In this document: positions 3,684 through 32,146 of the stretch, piece after piece
Numbering within the stretch: the stretch's first letter is position 1
Layout: every line of letters starts with the position of its first letter
Assembly (NCBI GenBank): GCA_030834165.1
Contig: JAURFU010000023.1
Location: 1 to 32,712 of the forward strand
Direction of reading: 5' to 3'
Source: Verrucomicrobiota bacterium
GTDB lineage: Bacteria > Verrucomicrobiota > Verrucomicrobiia > Opitutales > UBA953
Length of the DNA: 32,712 nucleotides
Notes under the pieces: model-generated
What the model was told of the DNA's origin: nothing
The model's input: the letters and a program-made list of their open reading frames with translations, nothing else
Databases searched by the model: none
Program-made: the position numbers and the translations under genes

Positions 3684-3784
3684 AAAGGCCCTCCTCCGCT
3701 GTTGACCGTAGGGGGGAGTTCTATTTGCTCGGCCGTTCCCCCCGCGACCAAGACCCGCCCGGGGCCTCCCTCCCTTTATATCCC

Positions 3785-5074
3785 ATGGACATCAAAATCC
3801 AAGAAACCAACCCGACCCGCCGCTCCGTCACCGTGACGGTCCCCGCCGCGACCGTCGCCGCCGCCGAGAAGGAAGTCGTCAAGGGCTTCACCCGCGAGGC
3901 CGCCCTCCCCGGCTTCCGTCCGGGCAAGGCGCCGGAAGCCATCGTGCGCCAGAAGTACGGCAAGCAGATCGCCGACGAGGTCAGCCAGCGCCTCCTCTCC
4001 CAGGGATATGAACGCATCCAGCAGGAGAAGTCCTTCACCATCTACACCGTCGCCGACGTCCAGAAGGAAGCCGGCTCCGGCGCCGACGCCGTCTTCCGCT
4101 ACGAGGTGGACGTCGTCCCCGAGTTCAAGACCCCCGACTGGAAGGCCGTCAAGGCCCCCGTCGAGGAAGTGACCGTCACCGAGGCCGACATCGACCAGCA
4201 CCTCCAGAAGATCCTCGAGCAGCGCGCCCGCTACGAGAAGACCGAAGACGCCGCCGCCAAGGGTGACTACGTCCGCATCGGCTACGTCGGCACCGTCGAC
4301 GGCAAGCCCGTCAGCGAAGTCGACGCCGAGGCCAAGTCCTACGGCAGCGCCGAATCCACCTGGGAAGAAGCCGGGGCCGAAGGCGCCGCCGTCGCCGTCC
4401 CCGCCATCGCCCAGGCCGTGATCGGCCTCAAGGCCGGCGCCACCGCCCAGGCCGAATACGTCTTCCCCGCCACGCATGAGCGCGAAGCCCTCCGCGGCAA
4501 GAAGGTGTCCTACGCCATCACCGCCAGCGAAGTCCGCCGCAAGGAGATCCCCAAGGTCGACGAAGCCTTCTGCAAGGCCGTCGGCGTGAAGGACGCCGCC
4601 GAACTGCGCGACCAGCTCCGCAAGGGCATCGAAGGCTCCAAGAAGCAGGCCGCCGAGACCGCCCGCCGCGAGAAGGCCGTCGACGCCCTCCTGGCCGGCC
4701 TCGACTTCCCCCTGCCGGAATCCGCCGTCCTCTCCGTCGCCCAGGGCCTCTTCTACCAGTACGCCGAGATGCGCCTGCGCTCCGGCACCAAGCCCGAAGA
4801 GCTCGAGACCCAGCGCGACGACATCCTCGCCGAAGCCAAGAAGGCCGCCGCCCTCCGCGTCCGCGCCCAGTTCGTGCTCTCCCGCATCGCCGAGGAGCTC
4901 AAGCTCGAGGTGACCCGCGAGGAGCTCAGCTCCGCCATCATGCAGGCCGCCTACGCCGCCCAGACCCAGCCCGAAAAGCTGGTCAAGGACCGCCAGCGCC
5001 TCGCCGAGATCCGCCGCGACACCCTCCTCAACAAGGCCCTCGACGCCGTCCTCGCCGGCGGAGTCGCCGCCTGA
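3785..5074 (+). CDS. tig: Trigger factor
   Basis: A 429-residue ribosome-associated chaperone with peptidyl-prolyl isomerase activity. The N-terminal ribosome-binding signature GFRPGK is at residues 43-48. An FKBP-like domain begins at GDYVRIGYVGTVDGKPV, and a long alpha-helical C-terminal region follows, rich in alanine, lysine and glutamate. The start at 3785 gives MDIKIQETNPTRRSVTV, as expected for the family; a frame extension of 20 codons upstream has no family resemblance. The leader is C-rich (CTTTATATCCC) with no Shine-Dalgarno site. A TTGACC at 3702-3707 could be a -35 box, but no -10 box lies at normal spacing. It leads the tig-clpP-clpX block. Confidence 0.95.
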   Translation: MDIKIQETNPTRRSVTVTVPAATVAAAEKEVVKGFTREAALPGFRPGKAPEAIVRQKYGKQIADEVSQRLLSQGYERIQQEKSFTIYTVADVQKEAGSGADAVFRYEVDVVPEFKTPDWKAVKAPVEEVTVTEADIDQHLQKILEQRARYEKTEDAAAKGDYVRIGYVGTVDGKPVSEVDAEAKSYGSAESTWEEAGAEGAAVAVPAIAQAVIGLKAGATAQAEYVFPATHEREALRGKKVSYAITASEVRRKEIPKVDEAFCKAVGVKDAAELRDQLRKGIEGSKKQAAETARREKAVDALLAGLDFPLPESAVLSVAQGLFYQYAEMRLRSGTKPEELETQRDDILAEAKKAAALRVRAQFVLSRIAEELKLEVTREELSSAIMQAAYAAQTQPEKLVKDRQRLAEIRRDTLLNKALDAVLAGGVAA

Positions 5075-5119
5075 GGTTGAGATTTCGCCCGTTCCGGGCA
5101 CAGTCCTCCCCGCACCACC

Positions 5120-5716
5120 ATGTCCTACATCATTCCTAACGTCGTCGAACGCGACGCCCGCGGCGAGCGAGCCTGGGACATCTACAGCCGCCTCCTCAAG
5201 GACCGCATCATCTTCATCGGCTCGCCGATCTACGATGACGTGGCCAACGCGGTCATCGCCCAGCTGCTCTTCCTGCAGATGGAGGACCCGAAGAAGGACA
5301 TCTCGATCTACATCAACTCGCCCGGCGGCTCCATCACCGCCGGCATGGCCATCTACGACACGATGAACTTCCTGTCGTGCGAGGTGAACACCTACTGCAT
5401 CGGCCTCTCGGCCAGCATGGCCACCGTCCTCCTCGCCGCCGGCACCAAGGGCAAGCGCCACGCGCTCCCCAACTGCCGCGTGATGATCCACCAGCCCAGC
5501 GGCGGCGCCACCGGCCAGACGTCCGACATCTCGATCGCCGCGAAGGAGATCCTCCGCTGGCGCGACACCCTCAACCACGTCCTCGCCAAGCACAGCGGCA
5601 AGACGCCCGAGGAACTGCAGCGCGACTCCGACCGCGACTTCTACATGACGGCCGAGCAGGCGAAGGCCTACGGCCTCGTCGACCACGTCGTGATGCCCAA
5701 GCCGGGCCGCGCCTAA
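5120..5716 (+). CDS. clpP: ATP-dependent Clp protease proteolytic subunit
   Basis: A 198-residue cytosolic serine protease subunit that forms the ClpP barrel and partners with the ClpX unfoldase encoded next. The catalytic triad is S99 (in GLSASMA), H124 (MIHQPSGG) and D173 (DRDFYM). The oxyanion/strand region INSPGGS is intact. Family members usually read GQAASM where this one has GLSASM, a small variation that keeps the serine. The start is the first ATG after tig, 45 nt beyond its stop, with a C-rich leader and no Shine-Dalgarno motif. The gap to clpX is 4 nt. Two exported relatives of this domain are encoded at 29611-32146. Confidence 0.97.
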
Positions 5717-5720
5717 GCCC

Positions 5721-7037
5721 ATGTCCGGCGACCGCGCCGAGAGCTGCTCCTTCTGCGGCAAGCCCGCCGCCCAGGCCGGCAAGCTGATCGCCGGACCCGG
5801 CGGCGTCGGCATCTGCGACGCCTGCGTGGGCACCTGCGGCCGCCTCCTCGAACGCGAGAAGACGCGCGACGCCAAGCCCGCGGCGGCCGCCGGCGGCCCC
5901 GCCGTGCAGGAGGCCCCCGCCAAGACCCCGCTCGCCCCGATCAAGCTGATCGCGCCGACGCAGCTGCGCCTCGAGCTCGACGCGCACGTGATCGGCCAGG
6001 CCCACGCGAAGAAGGTCCTCTCCGTCGCCGTCTTCAACCATTACAAGCGCCTCAACGACCGCCGGAAGCCCGCCGGCGCCGCCCAGGCCGGCGACCTCGC
6101 CGACGTCGAGCTCGACAAGAGCAACGTGCTGCTGATCGGCCCGACCGGCACCGGCAAGACCCTCCTCGCCCGCTCGCTCGCCCGCATGCTCGACGTGCCG
6201 TTCGCGATCGCCGACGCGACGACGCTCACCGAAGCCGGCTACGTCGGCGACGACGTCGAGACCGTCATCCTCCGCCTCCTGCAGGCCGCCGACATGGACG
6301 TCGAACGCGCCCAGCGCGGCATCGTCTTCATCGACGAGATCGACAAGATCGGCCGCAAGTCCGACTCGGCCTCGATCACCCGCGACGTGTCCGGCGAAGG
6401 CGTCCAGCAGGCCCTGCTCAAGCTCCTCGAGGGCACCATCTGCAACGTCCCGCCCGCCGGCGGCCGCAAGCACCCGGAGCAGCAGTGCATCCGCGTCGAC
6501 ACGGCCGACATCCTCTTCATCTGCGGCGGCGCCTTCGCGGGCCTCGACCGCATCATCGCCCGCCGCGGCGGCGCGAAGTCCCTCGGCTTCGTCCCCCCGC
6601 GCAACGACGCGCCTTCCCTCTCGGCCGAACAGATCGTCGCGGGCCTCCAGCCCGAGGACCTCTTCTCCTTCGGGATGATCCCGGAGTTCGTCGGCCGCCT
6701 GCCCGTCATCTCGGTCCTGGAGCCCCTCGACCGCGAGGCGCTCATCCGCATCCTGACCGAGCCGCGCAACGCCGCGACCAAGCAGTACCGCAAGCTCTTC
6801 GCGCTCTCGGGCATGTCCCTTGAGTTCACCCGCGAATCCCTCGAGGCCGCCGCCGACAAGGCCCTGGCCCTCGGCACGGGCGCCCGCGGCCTCCGTTCCG
6901 TGCTCGAAGGGGTGCTCCTCGAGACCATGTACGCGCTGCCCGAAGCCGCCGCCGGTTCGAAGTTCACGGTGACGGCCGAAGCGATCCGCGGCGAACAGCC
7001 CGTGTCCGTCGTGGCGCCGAAGAAGAAAGCTTCCTGA
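5721..7037 (+). CDS. clpX: ATP-dependent Clp protease ATP-binding subunit ClpX
   Basis: A 438-residue AAA+ unfoldase that feeds substrates to ClpP. The N-terminal zinc-binding domain has C9, C12, C32 and C35. The Walker A motif GPTGTGKT is at residues 140-147, Walker B is IVFIDEID, and the pore motif GYVGDDVE is present. The ClpP-docking IGF loop appears as LGF within KSLGFVPP. A linker rich in alanine and proline (about residues 48-72) joins the zinc domain to the AAA+ core. It starts 4 nt after clpP and ends 5 nt before hisA, so all three are probably one transcript. The leader ends AAGCCC with no ribosome site. Confidence 0.97.
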
Positions 7038-7042
7038 CCTCC

Positions 7043-7774
7043 ATGCTCGCCTATCCGGCCATCGACATCCGCGGCGGTCGCTGCGTCCGCCTCAGCCAGG
7101 GACGTGACGACGCCCGCACCGACTACTACAAGGACCCGGTGGAGCCGGCCGTCGTGTTCGCCCAGGCCGGCGCGGCGTGGATCCACGTCGTCGACCTCGA
7201 CGGCGCCTTCGGCGGCGCGCCCCTCAACCTCCCGGTGCTCAAGCGCATCGCGGCGCTCGGTCCGAAGATCCAGTTCGGCGGCGGCATGCGCGACCGCGCG
7301 ACCGCCGAGGCCGCCTACGAAGCCGGCGCCAGCCGCGTCGTCATCGGCACGCGCGCCGCGACCGACCCCGCCTTCCTCCGCGAGATGGCCCAGGCCCACG
7401 GCCCGCGTCTCGCGGTCGGCATCGACGCCAAGGACGGCCTCGTCGCCGTCAAAGGCTGGACGGCCGTGACGGCCCTCAAGGCGACGGAGTTCGCCAAGGA
7501 AGCCGGCGAGCTCGGCGTCTCGACCGTCATCTACACCGACATCGCCACCGACGGCATGCTCACGGGTCCGAACTGGTCCTCGCTCGAAGCGGTGCTCAAG
7601 GCCTGCCCCTGCGGCGTGATCGCCTCCGGCGGCGTGTCCGGCACGGCCGACGTCGCCCGCCTCGCGGAGATGGCCAAGGCCTACCCGAACCTCGTCGGCG
7701 CCATCGTCGGCAAGGCCTTGTACGAAGGCCGTTGCGACGTCGCCGGATTGCTCAAGGCCACGGGCGAACGCTGA
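7043..7774 (+). CDS. hisA: HisA, ProFAR isomerase of histidine synthesis
   Basis: A 243-residue (beta/alpha)8-barrel enzyme of the fourth step of histidine synthesis, isomerising ProFAR to PRFAR. The general base D8 lies in PAIDIRGG and the general acid D128 in GIDAKDG. Phosphate-binding motifs FGGGMRD and ASGGVSG, and the family string YTDIATDGMLTGPN, are clear. No inserted or missing blocks are seen. It begins 5 nt after clpX. Such tight linkage of a biosynthetic gene to the Clp unfoldase is not the usual his operon arrangement. hisD follows after one exported hypothetical protein; hisF, hisH and hisB are not in the window. Confidence 0.95.
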   Translation: MLAYPAIDIRGGRCVRLSQGRDDARTDYYKDPVEPAVVFAQAGAAWIHVVDLDGAFGGAPLNLPVLKRIAALGPKIQFGGGMRDRATAEAAYEAGASRVVIGTRAATDPAFLREMAQAHGPRLAVGIDAKDGLVAVKGWTAVTALKATEFAKEAGELGVSTVIYTDIATDGMLTGPNWSSLEAVLKACPCGVIASGGVSGTADVARLAEMAKAYPNLVGAIVGKALYEGRCDVAGLLKATGER

Positions 7775-7847
7775 GCCCGGCCGGGGCGTCCGGCGCCGCC
7801 CTTCCGATGCTTGCCAAGCAGGCACCCCCGCCCAACATCGCCCCTCC

Positions 7848-8603
7848 ATGGCCCTGTTCCGCCGACTTTCCGCGCTGCTGGCGACGTTCCTGTTCGCCGC
7901 GACGAGCGGCCTTGCCGCCGACAAGCCCCTGAGCCTCGACGAAGTGATCGCGAAGGCCCGCGCGGCCGCGGCCGCCGACCCGGCCGCCCTGACGAAGGTC
8001 CGCTCACTCCGCCTGGAGTTCACGTCGGCCGACGAGAAGGGAAAATCCCAAGGTCGGATGACGCTCACGCTCGCCGCCCCCGGCTACCGCCATCAGCTCT
8101 CGGCCTCCGACGAACCGGCCACGACGACCATCGTCTGCGCCGGCCGGCTCGAAGGCTGGACCACCCGTCAGCGCGGACCGCTCACGCCCAAGGAGATCCG
8201 CCCGGTCACGTTCGAGGAATTCCGCAAGCTGCAGGACATGGCCCGCGACGACCTGGCGTTCTTCGCCGCGCCGGCGCCCGAGGTCGGGACCGCCGAATAC
8301 AAGGGTCTGACGGAAGTCTCCGGCCGCGCCACCCACGCCGTGCACTACGCCTACGCCAGCGGCTTCCGCATCACGCGTCACTTCGACGCCAAGACCTTCG
8401 CCCTCGTGGCCTCCGACCAGCTCACCCCGGCCCGGGAACTGATCCGTCAGCAGGTGGAGTCCTTCGTCGAAGTCGACGGCTTGCGCTTCGCCGCCAAGGA
8501 GACCGTCACCATCGAAGGCCGCAAATCCGGCGAGGTGACCTACGGCCGGATCCAGGTGAACCCCGCCTTGACCCCGGGTCTTTTCGATTTTCCTACCTTC
8601 TGA
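7848..8603 (+). CDS. Exported protein, LolA/LolB-like fold possible
   Basis: I do not recognise a firm family. The 251-residue product starts with a clear signal peptide (arginine-containing n-region, hydrophobic LLATFLFAATSGLA, likely cleavage after LAA), so it is exported. The rest is a beta-strand-rich mature domain with phrases such as GRMTLTLAAPGYRHQL, ARELIRQQVESFVEVDGLRF and GEVTYGRIQVNPAL. These resemble outer-membrane lipoprotein-sorting (LolA-like) domains, where a sheet covers a hydrophobic cavity; that is inference. There is no lipobox cysteine. The gene is 73 nt after hisA and 4 nt before hisD, so it is probably co-transcribed with them, with no obvious link to histidine synthesis. 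The leader ends CCCCTCC before ATG. Confidence 0.7.
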   Translation: MALFRRLSALLATFLFAATSGLAADKPLSLDEVIAKARAAAAADPAALTKVRSLRLEFTSADEKGKSQGRMTLTLAAPGYRHQLSASDEPATTTIVCAGRLEGWTTRQRGPLTPKEIRPVTFEEFRKLQDMARDDLAFFAAPAPEVGTAEYKGLTEVSGRATHAVHYAYASGFRITRHFDAKTFALVASDQLTPARELIRQQVESFVEVDGLRFAAKETVTIEGRKSGEVTYGRIQVNPALTPGLFDFPTF

Positions 8604-16778: not shown

Positions 16779-16799
16779 GGGCAGCACGCGGTGCTGCCC
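16779..16799 (-). repeat. 21-nt palindrome family, copy 2
   Basis: Perfect 9-bp arms GGGCAGCAC and GTGCTGCCC around GCG, with CTA before and CTACC after. The 29 bases at 16776-16804 are identical to 29576-29604, about 12.8 kb away. Confidence 0.8.
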
Positions 16800-25908: not shown

Positions 25909-25929
25909 GGTCAGCACTGCGTGCTGACC
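25909..25929 (+). repeat. 21-nt palindrome family, copy 3
   Basis: Perfect 9-bp arms GGTCAGCAC and GTGCTGACC around TGC, preceded by CTCGAGGTAG and followed by TAGTTG. The left flank is shared with copies 2 (reversed) and 8. Confidence 0.8.
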
Positions 25930-29247: not shown

Positions 29248-29268
29248 GGACAGCACCACGTGCTGTCC
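29248..29268 (+). repeat. 21-nt palindrome family, copy 6
   Basis: Perfect 9-bp arms GGACAGCAC and GTGCTGTCC around CAC, preceded by GAGGCAG (one change from GAGGTAG) and followed by TAGGTG. Confidence 0.78.
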
Positions 29269-29434: not shown

Positions 29435-29449
29435 GCTGCATCGAGGTAG

Positions 29450-29470
29450 GGGCAGCACCGCGTGCTGCCC
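29450..29470 (+). repeat. 21-nt palindrome family, copy 8
   Basis: Perfect 9-bp arms GGGCAGCAC and GTGCTGCCC around CGC, preceded by TCGAGGTAG and followed by TAGCTG. Confidence 0.8.
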
Positions 29471-29486
29471 TAGCTGCCTTGGGTAG

Positions 29487-29507
29487 GGTTGAGCGGCCCG
29501 CTCAACC
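29487..29507 (+). repeat. 21-nt palindrome family, copy 9
   Basis: Perfect 9-bp arms GGTTGAGCG and CGCTCAACC around GCC, preceded by GGGTAG. It lies 2 nt from copy 10, which faces the other way. Confidence 0.78.
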
Positions 29508-29509
29508 GA

Positions 29510-29530
29510 GGCTGACCGAGCCGGCCAGCC
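29510..29530 (-). repeat. 21-nt palindrome family, copy 10
   Basis: Arms GGCTGACCG and CGGCCAGCC around AGC pair at eight of nine positions, followed by CTACC. Confidence 0.7.
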
Positions 29531-29549
29531 CTACCTAATACCTCGTAAA

Positions 29550-29574
29550 CAAAAGGCCGCCAGAAGGCGGCCTT
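29550..29574 (-). terminator. Intrinsic terminator of the exported protease operon
   Basis: AAGGCCGCC (29553-29561) pairs with GGCGGCCTT (29566-29574) around AGAA. On the minus strand the stem is followed by TTTTGTTT. It lies 36 nt beyond the stop of the gene at 29611. Confidence 0.85.
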
Positions 29575-29578
29575 GCTA

Positions 29579-29599
29579 GGGCAGCACGCGGTGCTGCCC
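29579..29599 (-). repeat. 21-nt palindrome family, copy 11
   Basis: Perfect 9-bp arms GGGCAGCAC and GTGCTGCCC around GCG, preceded by CTA and followed by CTACC. It sits between the 29611 stop codon and the terminator, and the 29 bases at 29576-29604 are identical to copy 2. Confidence 0.8.
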
Positions 29600-29610
29600 C
29601 TACCCTGCGC

Positions 29611-30933
29611 TCAGCGCGCGCGATACAGGCCCTGGGGATCGTAGAGCCACCAGGCGTCGAACGGATTGGCGAGGGCCGGGAGTTCGAAATACGGACGGCC
29701 CTTGTCGTCGACGCGCGAGACGACCCCGGAGACTTCGGTGCGGGTCGGCGGCTGGGGGAGCGGCGAAGGCATGGCGGTCGGGGCGACCGGCACGGGCAGC
29801 AGGTCGAGCACGGCGGTCTCTTCGATGCGCTCGATGACGTGGTCGACCCACTTGAGCTCCTTGGCCTTGTCGCCGAAAGCCTGCCAGTCGCCGGTGGAAT
29901 CGTTGGCGTACATCTGCTTCACGAATTCCTCGAGCGAGATGCCCATCTTCCTGGCCACCGGGGTGGCGAGGCGGTCGAACCACTTATTGGTGAAATCGAT
30001 CTGCTCCTTGAGCACGGTCATGTTGCCGCGGACGACGTTCGAGGCCTGGTGATGGAGCAGGATGGTGTTCGGGTAGCAGTAGGAGCGCTCGGCCAGCGTG
30101 CAGATGACGGCCGTCATCGAGGCGGCGAAGCCTTTCACGACGACGTGCACCGGAGCCTTGGAGGCGGCCATGGCCTTCTGGATCTGGTAGCCCGCGGCGA
30201 CGGAACCACCCGGGGAGTTGTCGACGACGATGAAGATCGGGAACTCGGAGGACTGGTTGTTATAGAAGGCGATGCGCGTGCAGACGTAGTCGGCCAGCTG
30301 CTCGGTCACGGCGCCGTTGAAGGCGATGCGACGGTCGCTGACGTACAGCACGCCGTCGACGAGCGGGTCCTTGAGATACTTCGGCTTGGCCTTGCTGGCG
30401 ATCTTGCGGGCCTCGTCTTCCTTCTGGAAGCGCTGGATCTCGTTGGAGAGGCGGGCGACGGTGTTGGCGGCCTCGAGCTGGAGCTGCTTGGCCTCGGCTT
30501 CGAGTTCGCGGATCTTGTTGGAGCGTTCGGCCAGGCGGGCGGTGGAACGGGCGGATTCGAGCGCGGCCTGGCGCTCGAGCTTGGCGCGTTCGTCCTCGAG
30601 GGCGGCGGCTTCGGCGGAAGCCTTCGCGAGACGGAGCGAACGCTCGGCGGTCAGGCGGGCGACCTCGGCCTGCAGCGGGGCGAGCTCCTCGGCGCGCTTG
30701 GCTTCGGCAAGGGCGAGCTCGGCGTCGATGCGGGCCTTCTGGGCACGCATGCTTTCGGCTTCCTTCATCGCGGCCTTCTGCTGCGGGGTGAGTTCGTCGC
30801 GGGGCGCGGCCACGGGAGCCGGAGCCGCGGGAGCAGCGGGAGCAGCCGGGGCCGGCGCGGCCTGCTGGGCGAGGGCGTTCGCGGCCGCGAAGACGGCGAG
30901 CGCGAGGACGCGGAGGGAGGTGCGGAGATGCAT
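29611..30933 (-). CDS. Exported coiled-coil protein with ClpP-type protease domain (second of pair)
   Basis: A 440-residue exported protein with three parts. Residues 1-22 are a signal peptide (LRVLALAVFAAANALA), followed by an alanine/proline linker (24-44). Residues about 48-175 form a long charged helix typical of a coiled coil. Residues about 190-370 are a ClpP-fold serine protease domain with S272 (GFAASM), H295 (LLHHQAS) and D349 (TGDWQAF), plus the oxyanion strand DNSPGGS. The segment ending KWVDHV aligns without gaps with the cytosolic ClpP of this window around D173. A proline-rich spacer leads to a C-terminal FDAWWLYDP motif shared with its upstream neighbour. No ATPase accompanies it. 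Function is unknown; periplasmic proteolysis or a scaffold role is inference. It follows its paralogue after 19 nt, with C-rich sequence before ATG. Confidence 0.85.
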   Translation of the reverse strand: MHLRTSLRVLALAVFAAANALAQQAAPAPAAPAAPAAPAPVAAPRDELTPQQKAAMKEAESMRAQKARIDAELALAEAKRAEELAPLQAEVARLTAERSLRLAKASAEAAALEDERAKLERQAALESARSTARLAERSNKIRELEAEAKQLQLEAANTVARLSNEIQRFQKEDEARKIASKAKPKYLKDPLVDGVLYVSDRRIAFNGAVTEQLADYVCTRIAFYNNQSSEFPIFIVVDNSPGGSVAAGYQIQKAMAASKAPVHVVVKGFAASMTAVICTLAERSYCYPNTILLHHQASNVVRGNMTVLKEQIDFTNKWFDRLATPVARKMGISLEEFVKQMYANDSTGDWQAFGDKAKELKWVDHVIERIEETAVLDLLPVPVAPTAMPSPLPQPPTRTEVSGVVSRVDDKGRPYFELPALANPFDAWWLYDPQGLYRAR

Positions 30934-30952
30934 GGGGGGTTGTGTTATGAAA

Positions 30953-32146
30953 TCAGCGGAGGACGAATTCGACGGTGGGGTCGTACATCCACCAGAGGTC
31001 GCAGGGGCCGAGCGGCGGCAGGGCCTGGCGGACGCGGCCGTCCTGGTTCTTGCCGGCGTTGAAGCCGTCGGGGTTGGGCTCGGCCACGACGGGCGGCACG
31101 GCGCCGGCCACGGTGAGGGAATCTTCGGACATGCGGTCGACGACGTCGGTCACCCACCTGCGGCGGCCGGCCTCGTCGCCGAGGATCTTCCAGTCGCCGG
31201 TCGAGGTGCCCTTGTACATCTGGGCGACGAAGTCGTCGACGGTCGTGCCGATGCGGGCGGCCACCTTCTCGAAGATGCGCTCGCACCAGACCTTGCTCCA
31301 CTTGAGCTGTTCCTTAAGCTGGGTGACGTTGCCGCTCAGGCCGACGGAGGCCTGGTGGTGCAGCACGATGGTGTTCGGGTAGACGAACGAACGCTTCGCG
31401 AGGGTGGTGACGATCGCGGCCATCGAGGCGGCGTAACCCTTCACGACGACGTAGACCGGCGCCTTGGAGGTCTCCATGGCCTGGAGCATCATGTAGCCCG
31501 ACATCACGGAGCCTCCCGGCGAGCGGTCGATGACGATGAAGATCGGGGCTTCGCTATCGAGGGCGTTATAGAAGGCGATGCGGCCGCAGACGAACTGGGC
31601 GAGCTTGTCGTCGACGCGTCCGTTGAACGGGATGCGACGGTCGGAGATGTGCAGCACGCCGTCGATGAGCGGATCCTTCGGGTAGGCGATCTTCGCGCCG
31701 CTGGCGACCTCGGCGGCCTTGGCCTGCAGGCGCGCGATCTGCCCGAGCGACGAGACCTTGGCGTATTCGACGGAAACTTCGGCGAAGGCGAGACGGGACT
31801 GCACTTCGAGTTCGGCGCGGGCGCGGTCCTTGTCGGCCGAAGCGACGGCGGCCAGGGCGGCGCGGAGGGCGGCTTCGAGCTTAAGCTTAGTCTGCTCGGC
31901 TTCGATCGGCGCGGCGGCGGCCTCGGCGCGGGCGGCGCGGAGGGCGGCTTCGGCTTCGAGCTTACGGAGTTCGAGCGCCTGGTTCAGCGCGGCGAGCTTG
32001 CGCTGCGAAGCGGCCAGATCGAGACGGGCGCGGATGAGGTCGGTCTCGATCTCCGCCTTGATGACCTCGGGGGTCTTCTTAACCGGGCTGAACTGCGCCA
32101 TGAGGGGCGCGGCGAGGAAGAGGAAGACGTAAGCCAGGCGCGACAT
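30953..32146 (-). CDS. Exported coiled-coil protein with ClpP-type protease domain (first of pair)
   Basis: A 397-residue paralogue of the next gene with the same layout. The signal peptide is MSRLAYVFLFLAAPLMA; a strongly helical alanine/glutamate/lysine-rich coiled coil spans about residues 25-148; the ClpP-like domain spans about 155-340. The triad is S241 (GYAASMAA), H264 (VLHHQAS) and D318 (TGDWKIL), with DRSPGGS as oxyanion strand. The C-terminus ends in CDLWWMYDP, matching FDAWWLYDP of the partner. The ATG at 32146 is the only start giving a signal peptide; its leader is TTACCCCC without a ribosome site. It heads a two-gene operon closed by the terminator at 29550-29574. It may form mixed rings with the partner, as paired ClpPs do; this is inference. 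Confidence 0.85.
   Translation of the reverse strand: MSRLAYVFLFLAAPLMAQFSPVKKTPEVIKAEIETDLIRARLDLAASQRKLAALNQALELRKLEAEAALRAARAEAAAAPIEAEQTKLKLEAALRAALAAVASADKDRARAELEVQSRLAFAEVSVEYAKVSSLGQIARLQAKAAEVASGAKIAYPKDPLIDGVLHISDRRIPFNGRVDDKLAQFVCGRIAFYNALDSEAPIFIVIDRSPGGSVMSGYMMLQAMETSKAPVYVVVKGYAASMAAIVTTLAKRSFVYPNTIVLHHQASVGLSGNVTQLKEQLKWSKVWCERIFEKVAARIGTTVDDFVAQMYKGTSTGDWKILGDEAGRRRWVTDVVDRMSEDSLTVAGAVPPVVAEPNPDGFNAGKNQDGRVRQALPPLGPCDLWWMYDPTVEFVLR

Follow-up and report, generated by a model that had tools for sequence, protein, structure and literature searches.

The locus described here raises the question of how a protease with the fold of ClpP could act outside the cytoplasm, where it would have to work without ATP. 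ClpP is the textbook example of an ATP-fed chamber protease and is also an antibiotic target. The window, that is, the entire 32,712-nucleotide stretch of DNA analyzed, includes two adjacent genes on the minus strand, each of which was predicted to encode an exported protein with a ClpP-fold domain. The upstream gene B (30953-32146) encodes 397 amino acids in 398 codons including the stop, and the downstream gene A (29611-30933) encodes 440 amino acids in 441 codons including the stop. Because only 19 bp (30934-30952, minus strand) separate the stop of B from the start of A, and an intrinsic terminator with a 9-bp stem and a T-rich tail is found 3' of gene A (29553-29574, minus strand), B-A looks like a single two-gene transcript, consistent with an operon. 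The interpretation favored here, to which we assign a probability of roughly 0.6, is that the pair encodes an exported ClpP-fold serine protease of the cell envelope, which has A and B as its two subunits and works independently of ATP.

The source assembly (2.25 Mb in 150 contigs, 81% complete) represents an Opitutae-type verrucomicrobial bacterium, with the window located on contig C66. A phosphatidylserine decarboxylase gene lies upstream of the pair in divergent orientation, starting from 32216, and a separate cytochrome c/PA14 gene lies downstream. The canonical cytosolic clpP (5120-5716, plus strand, 270 bits to CLP_protease), which served as a comparator and is not part of the system, was found elsewhere in the window as the initial annotation had reported. 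It is flanked by the trigger factor gene (3725-5074) and clpX (5721-7037), and this tig-clpP-clpX cluster (3725-7034) is apart from the A/B pair. In addition, the source genome encodes a second ordinary clpP on contig C69 (22113-22649; L002, L132), which is away from clpX and has a Prc-type protease gene approximately 1.6 kb downstream of it.

Protein B is composed of a signal peptide (MSRLAYVFLFLAAPLMA-Q), a helix at residues 26-148, a ClpP-fold domain at approximately residues 164-340, and the tail motif LPPLGPCDLWWMYDP. Protein A includes a signal peptide (MHLRTSLRVLALAVFAAANALA-QQ), an Ala/Pro linker, a helix at residues 50-179, a ClpP-fold domain at approximately residues 186-374, a Pro-rich linker, and the tail motif LPALANPFDAWWLYDP. 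Both proteins matched the Pfam CLP_protease model (77.4 bits for A and 74.2 bits for B, against a cut-off of 20.2), and sequence matches to solved ClpPs were also found. The ClpP domain was well formed in the AlphaFold2 model of B, which aligned to 6pbu_E with a Z of 23.0 and an rmsd of 2.0 Å over 166 residues at 24% identity, and the length of the ClpP handle helix was kept both in the alignment and in this model (residues 274-299). The model of A was poor outside its helix (mean pLDDT 59.8, pTM 0.24), probably because just 29 related sequences were supplied, and the ClpP assignment of A rests on its sequence.

The long helix stands where ClpP has its axial N-terminal loop and first helix, while the Pro-rich linker and the conserved tail are additions relative to ClpP. 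In AlphaFold2 models, a single continuous helix was predicted in both A (pLDDT approximately 84-91) and B (approximately 69-84). The helices are about 125 residues long (120-130), rich in Ala, and carry many charges. The initial annotation had described them as coiled coils of about 125 residues, of which the length and the helical nature were borne out. A classical coiled coil was not supported, as a global Fourier test gave no signal above that of shuffles and heptad periodicity was weak in a local test (z of 1.8 for A and 0.95 for B, versus 7.4 for a tropomyosin control). Given such a weak heptad repeat, the evidence is stronger for a long helical arm than for a coiled coil. Similarly, a conserved C-terminal tail was found as proposed, while the exact WWxYDP turned out to be one form of a wider motif, LP-x-L-x-P-x-D-[WY]-[WYF]-x-Y-[DN]-P-x-x-[YF]-R, which occurs with variations in all families (WW, YW, YF, WM, or WA among relatives, with Y[DN]P). 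In the most distant member found (L101; genome G121, 5997-7325), the reading frame runs out into an unrelated sequence past the catalytic Asp and the tail is absent, perhaps as the result of an assembly frameshift.

The likeness to ClpP (MEROPS S14; PF00574) extends over a fold of approximately 165 residues, the Ser-His-Asp triad, the SPGGS and ASM/HQ motifs, and the handle helix length. In contrast to ClpP, A and B have predicted export, a 125-residue helix in place of the axial loops, an extra conserved C-terminal tail, and an altered AAA+ docking pocket and Arg sensor, and their genes do not adjoin clpX. A and B were therefore regarded as a variant of the ClpP kind, since they share its fold and triad but score below the equivalog cut-off and differ in docking pocket and predicted location. 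Specifically, A and B scored 52.2 and 53.0 bits to the NCBIfam clpP equivalog (cut-off 308.6), 19.3 and 17.3 bits to the SppA model TIGR00706 (cut-off 155), 17.7 and 20.3 bits to NfeD1b_N (cut-off 40), and 62.2 and 53.8 bits to the phage ClpP-related head maturation protease (cut-off 120; E-values of 6e-17 in NCBIfam and 8e-20 in PHROG), and PF01343 gave no match.

No curated exported-protease family thus claims A or B, with the NCBIfam and NfeD/SDH models all below their cut-offs, and the architecture was absent from the curated models of Pfam, NCBIfam, and PHROGs. No paper on an exported ClpP of this architecture was found in the literature accessible to the search. The specific architecture is apparently undescribed, as initially suggested, but the principle of an ATP-free ClpP-fold enzyme beyond the cytoplasm has precedents in SppA and NfeD1b. 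SppA (S49) is an envelope-facing ClpP-fold protease with no ATPase, a Ser-Lys dyad, and a bowl form; genomes with A and B encode it in a gene of its own, and the triad of A and B is Ser-His-Asp rather than Ser-Lys. Phage head-maturation proteases, another precedent for the principle, are also ClpP-fold enzymes without AAA+ partners; they resemble A and B in fold and in the ATP independence proposed for the pair, whereas A and B occur without phage context. The NfeD1b/PH1510-type protease, a ClpP-class enzyme whose gene adjoins those of SPFH proteins (PMC2636767), resembles A and B in having an envelope ClpP-like protease domain without an ATPase and in a weak profile similarity. Unlike NfeD1b, which is without the long helix and tail, A and B contain no detectable NfeD domain and have no SPFH gene as a conserved neighbor.

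The proteins of the A/B family are predicted to be exported by a Sec or lipoprotein signal. Despite widely differing sequences, the orthologues in relatives begin with a hydrophobic segment and then an AxA-like cleavage site. In gut Opitutales, the second gene, which occupies the position of gene A, encodes a lipobox in place of the ordinary signal (MFAGC, LLGGC, or VLSGC). The lipobox pattern had nine matches, and for three of these (L023, L031, and L037) an ordinary signal peptide with SAQ at its end is the more likely reading. Because N-terminal hydrophobicity partly guided the choice of start codons, the export-signal count of 140/140 is not independent evidence, and such evidence comes instead from the shared position, the cleavage sites, and the lipoboxes. 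From these signals we infer a periplasmic location for the family.

The pocket that receives the LGF loops of AAA+ partners was found to be rebuilt in the family. The equivalents of Y60, Y62, and F82 have been described as conserved pocket residues in a study of ClpC1-ClpP docking, and in B. subtilis ClpP, mutation at Y62 or F82 largely removed caseinolytic activity (PMC11005422). Among 156 family members, the column of E. coli Y62 was occupied by Val in 152, Ile in three, and Met in one, and the F82 column by Ala, Ser, Thr, or Gly in all 156. Lys was found in 156/156 members in the column of E. coli M92, a residue of the docking pocket. With this pocket rebuilt, the loss of the ATPase partner is therefore readable from the residues themselves. 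The genomic setting agrees with the initial suggestion that an ATPase partner is missing: no dedicated ATPase was found beside the pair, and no neighboring gene recurs across families or distant genomes. A conserved neighbor as a partner or substrate was also rejected, as recurrence was limited to close relatives and reflected lineage-local synteny. In apo Streptomyces ClpP, the C-terminus covers the LGF-loop pocket (PMC11005422), which makes the aromatic tail of A and B a candidate pocket cover; by this analogy, the conserved tail may occupy the same place.

In the favored reading of an exported, ATP-independent protease, A and B would pass through Sec and then assemble into a ClpP-like ring, which would be a homomer in genomes with one gene and a mixture of A and B in those with both. 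In place of the axial loops of ClpP, the N-terminal helices would extend from the apical face, forming a stalk up to approximately 19 nm long (125 residues at 1.5 Å each). Such a stalk could keep the chamber away from a membrane and restrict or collect the material entering it, while the tail motif might cover the pocket used by the LGF loops in ClpP. The enzyme would most likely clear peptides and unfolded proteins from the periplasm, a housekeeping role suggested by its presence in 35 of the 36 good genomes of the bacterial family of the window alongside SppA, Prc, and HtrA-like proteases. A fuller version of this mechanism is doubtful when taken as a whole: a self-sufficient envelope ClpP with a ring, a membrane-attached helical stalk replacing the axial gate, the tail occupying the LGF-loop pocket in cis, a chamber active without an ATPase, and mixed A/B rings in Opitutales. 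Under cis docking, the conserved tail Asp would face the invariant pocket Lys.

Ring formation is suggested by analogy with ClpP. Arg170, which lies beside the catalytic Asp and is the ring-ring Arg sensor of ClpP double rings, was Gly in 152 of 155 members, and its absence counts against the ring. This observation is consistent with an ATP-independent peptidase that forms no closed ring, but rather a membrane-tethered open assembly, such as an SppA-like bowl or a small NfeD1b-like oligomer, in which the helix would be both tether and oligomerization handle. The exported ClpP-fold relatives SppA and NfeD1b indeed function without AAA+ partners, and a weak match to NfeD1b_N was found in 29/29 A-type sequences. 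However, the similarity to ClpP (E-value of 1.6e-21) is far stronger than that to NfeD (0.0028) or SppA (0.0007), the triad is not of the Ser-Lys type, and the handle helix retains its ClpP length, so we consider an open assembly unlikely.

A further alternative is compatible with the ring of the favored reading and differs from it in the role of the helices. These could be Skp-like, substrate-catching tentacles of an ATP-independent chaperone-protease that passes unfolded exported proteins to the chamber. The length of the helices, their Ala-rich composition, and their many charges would suit such a function, as would the general retention of the proteins in the family with no partner gene. 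Similarity to Skp/OmpH was not detected by Pfam, and neither the model nor the weak heptads separate a stalk from a tentacle; we regard the tentacle role as rather improbable.

The coordinates initially given for both genes were confirmed, as were the ClpP-fold domain and the complete triad, by Pfam, the alignment, and the B model, and the predicted export signals were consistent across relatives. The triad is S272/H295/D349 in A and S241/H264/D318 in B; both align with S97/H122/D171 of E. coli ClpP and are complete in the window pair. The triad was invariant in a first set of relatives (57/56/56 for Ser/His/Asp in the second gene and 55/55/55 in the first). In an alignment of 158 members including distant families, it was complete in about 152 of the 155 that span the sites, so that the triad does not vary freely. 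Neither of the two outcomes that the initial annotation had named as refuting its reading, placement in a well-characterized exported protease family or free variation of the triad, was observed. The three deviants are the second gene of G305 (G/S/E), the first gene of G397 (G/E/Q), and a member from one low-completeness assembly (Asp to Asn). In G305 and G397, the triad-dead copies retain the export signal or lipobox, the ClpP domain, and the tail, and the gene next to each keeps an intact triad. The two dead copies group in a FastTree tree, perhaps through long-branch attraction, and they may derive from one loss event or from two. A structural envelope scaffold with vestigial catalysis, to which the tolerance of full triad loss in one copy in two genera could point, is very improbable, given the intact neighbor of each dead copy and the retention of all three residues in about 152/155 members across distant families. 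A and B are thus supported by their sequences as catalytically complete ClpP-fold serine proteases.

The distribution of the architecture was analyzed in 388 genomes of the phylum, where 33 matched the profile of A at an E-value of 1e-79 or better and the next matches were ordinary ClpPs at approximately 1e-22. A single-protein query of genome contigs matched only Opitutae-type loci. A phage or plasmid origin was rejected, as no full-length relative was found in phage and plasmid collections or viral contigs. In the family of the window, whose genomes are of 1-3 Mb, the architecture was present in 71 of 79 genomes. At least two matches were found in 60 of these, usually side by side with B ahead of A, and the pair was adjacent in practically all loci with both sides on the contig. 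Nine of the 11 single-match genomes belong to the genus g199, which has a single copy, and at least the match in G450 sits at the end of a contig. Elsewhere in the class, the architecture was present in 43 sampled genomes, as a single copy in 41, in tandem in one (L086; G278, 5963-8554), and as two copies 160 kb apart in one (L090/L091; G200), with the latter two outside the Opitutae pair lineage. In the genus of the window, A-type and B-type sequences formed separate, well supported clades, while the grouping of the gut lineages was weak.

Pairing is thus not universal. Because most other genomes of the phylum with this architecture have one copy, the pair is best read as the product of a duplication (or of retention) specific to its lineage, and in its single-copy form the protein would work without a partner. 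The hetero-oligomer that the initial annotation proposed from the pairing is partly supported by analogy, as the gene order is fixed and a triad-dead copy stands beside an intact one in two genera, as in ClpP/ClpR; it is weakened by the single-copy architecture in nearly all other families that carry it and in g199. ClpR has no triad yet remains in a complex with ClpP (PMC7966870). The ClpP/ClpR cores of cyanobacteria, plastids, and apicoplasts (PMC7966870) resemble the pair in being built of paralogous subunits and in that one subunit can lose its triad beside an intact partner. They differ in that an ATPase drives them and that they are not sent through a bacterial inner membrane, whereas both triads are kept in most genomes with A and B. 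Replacement of SppA was rejected, as SppA was found in most of the genomes that carry the family, including the source genome. With SppA, Prc, and HtrA-like proteases present alongside, A and B would add to this set rather than replace it.

What is new at this locus is probably an exported family of ClpP-fold proteins with a long helical arm and a rebuilt ATPase socket, acting outside the cytoplasm without ATP. The rebuilt pocket is the one in which acyldepsipeptides act. If the reading is correct, an exported branch without the ATPase socket would illustrate how a chamber protease can operate in the absence of ATP; as a conserved branch, it would be a natural experiment on ClpP gating. The family would also supply a missing piece of envelope proteostasis in Verrucomicrobiota, a subject on which little is known.

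A REP-like palindrome, GGGCAGCACCGCGTGCTGCCC, was observed at 29445-29604 of the window and also at 16779-16799, 25909-25929, and 29248-29268. Compensatory variants of its arms were found (GGTCAGCAC..GTGCTGACC and GGACAGCAC..GTGCTGTCC), and the terminator region behind gene A is bracketed by two inverted copies. With up to two mismatches, the palindrome had 67 matches in the 2.25-Mb genome, versus 0 for a reversed control.
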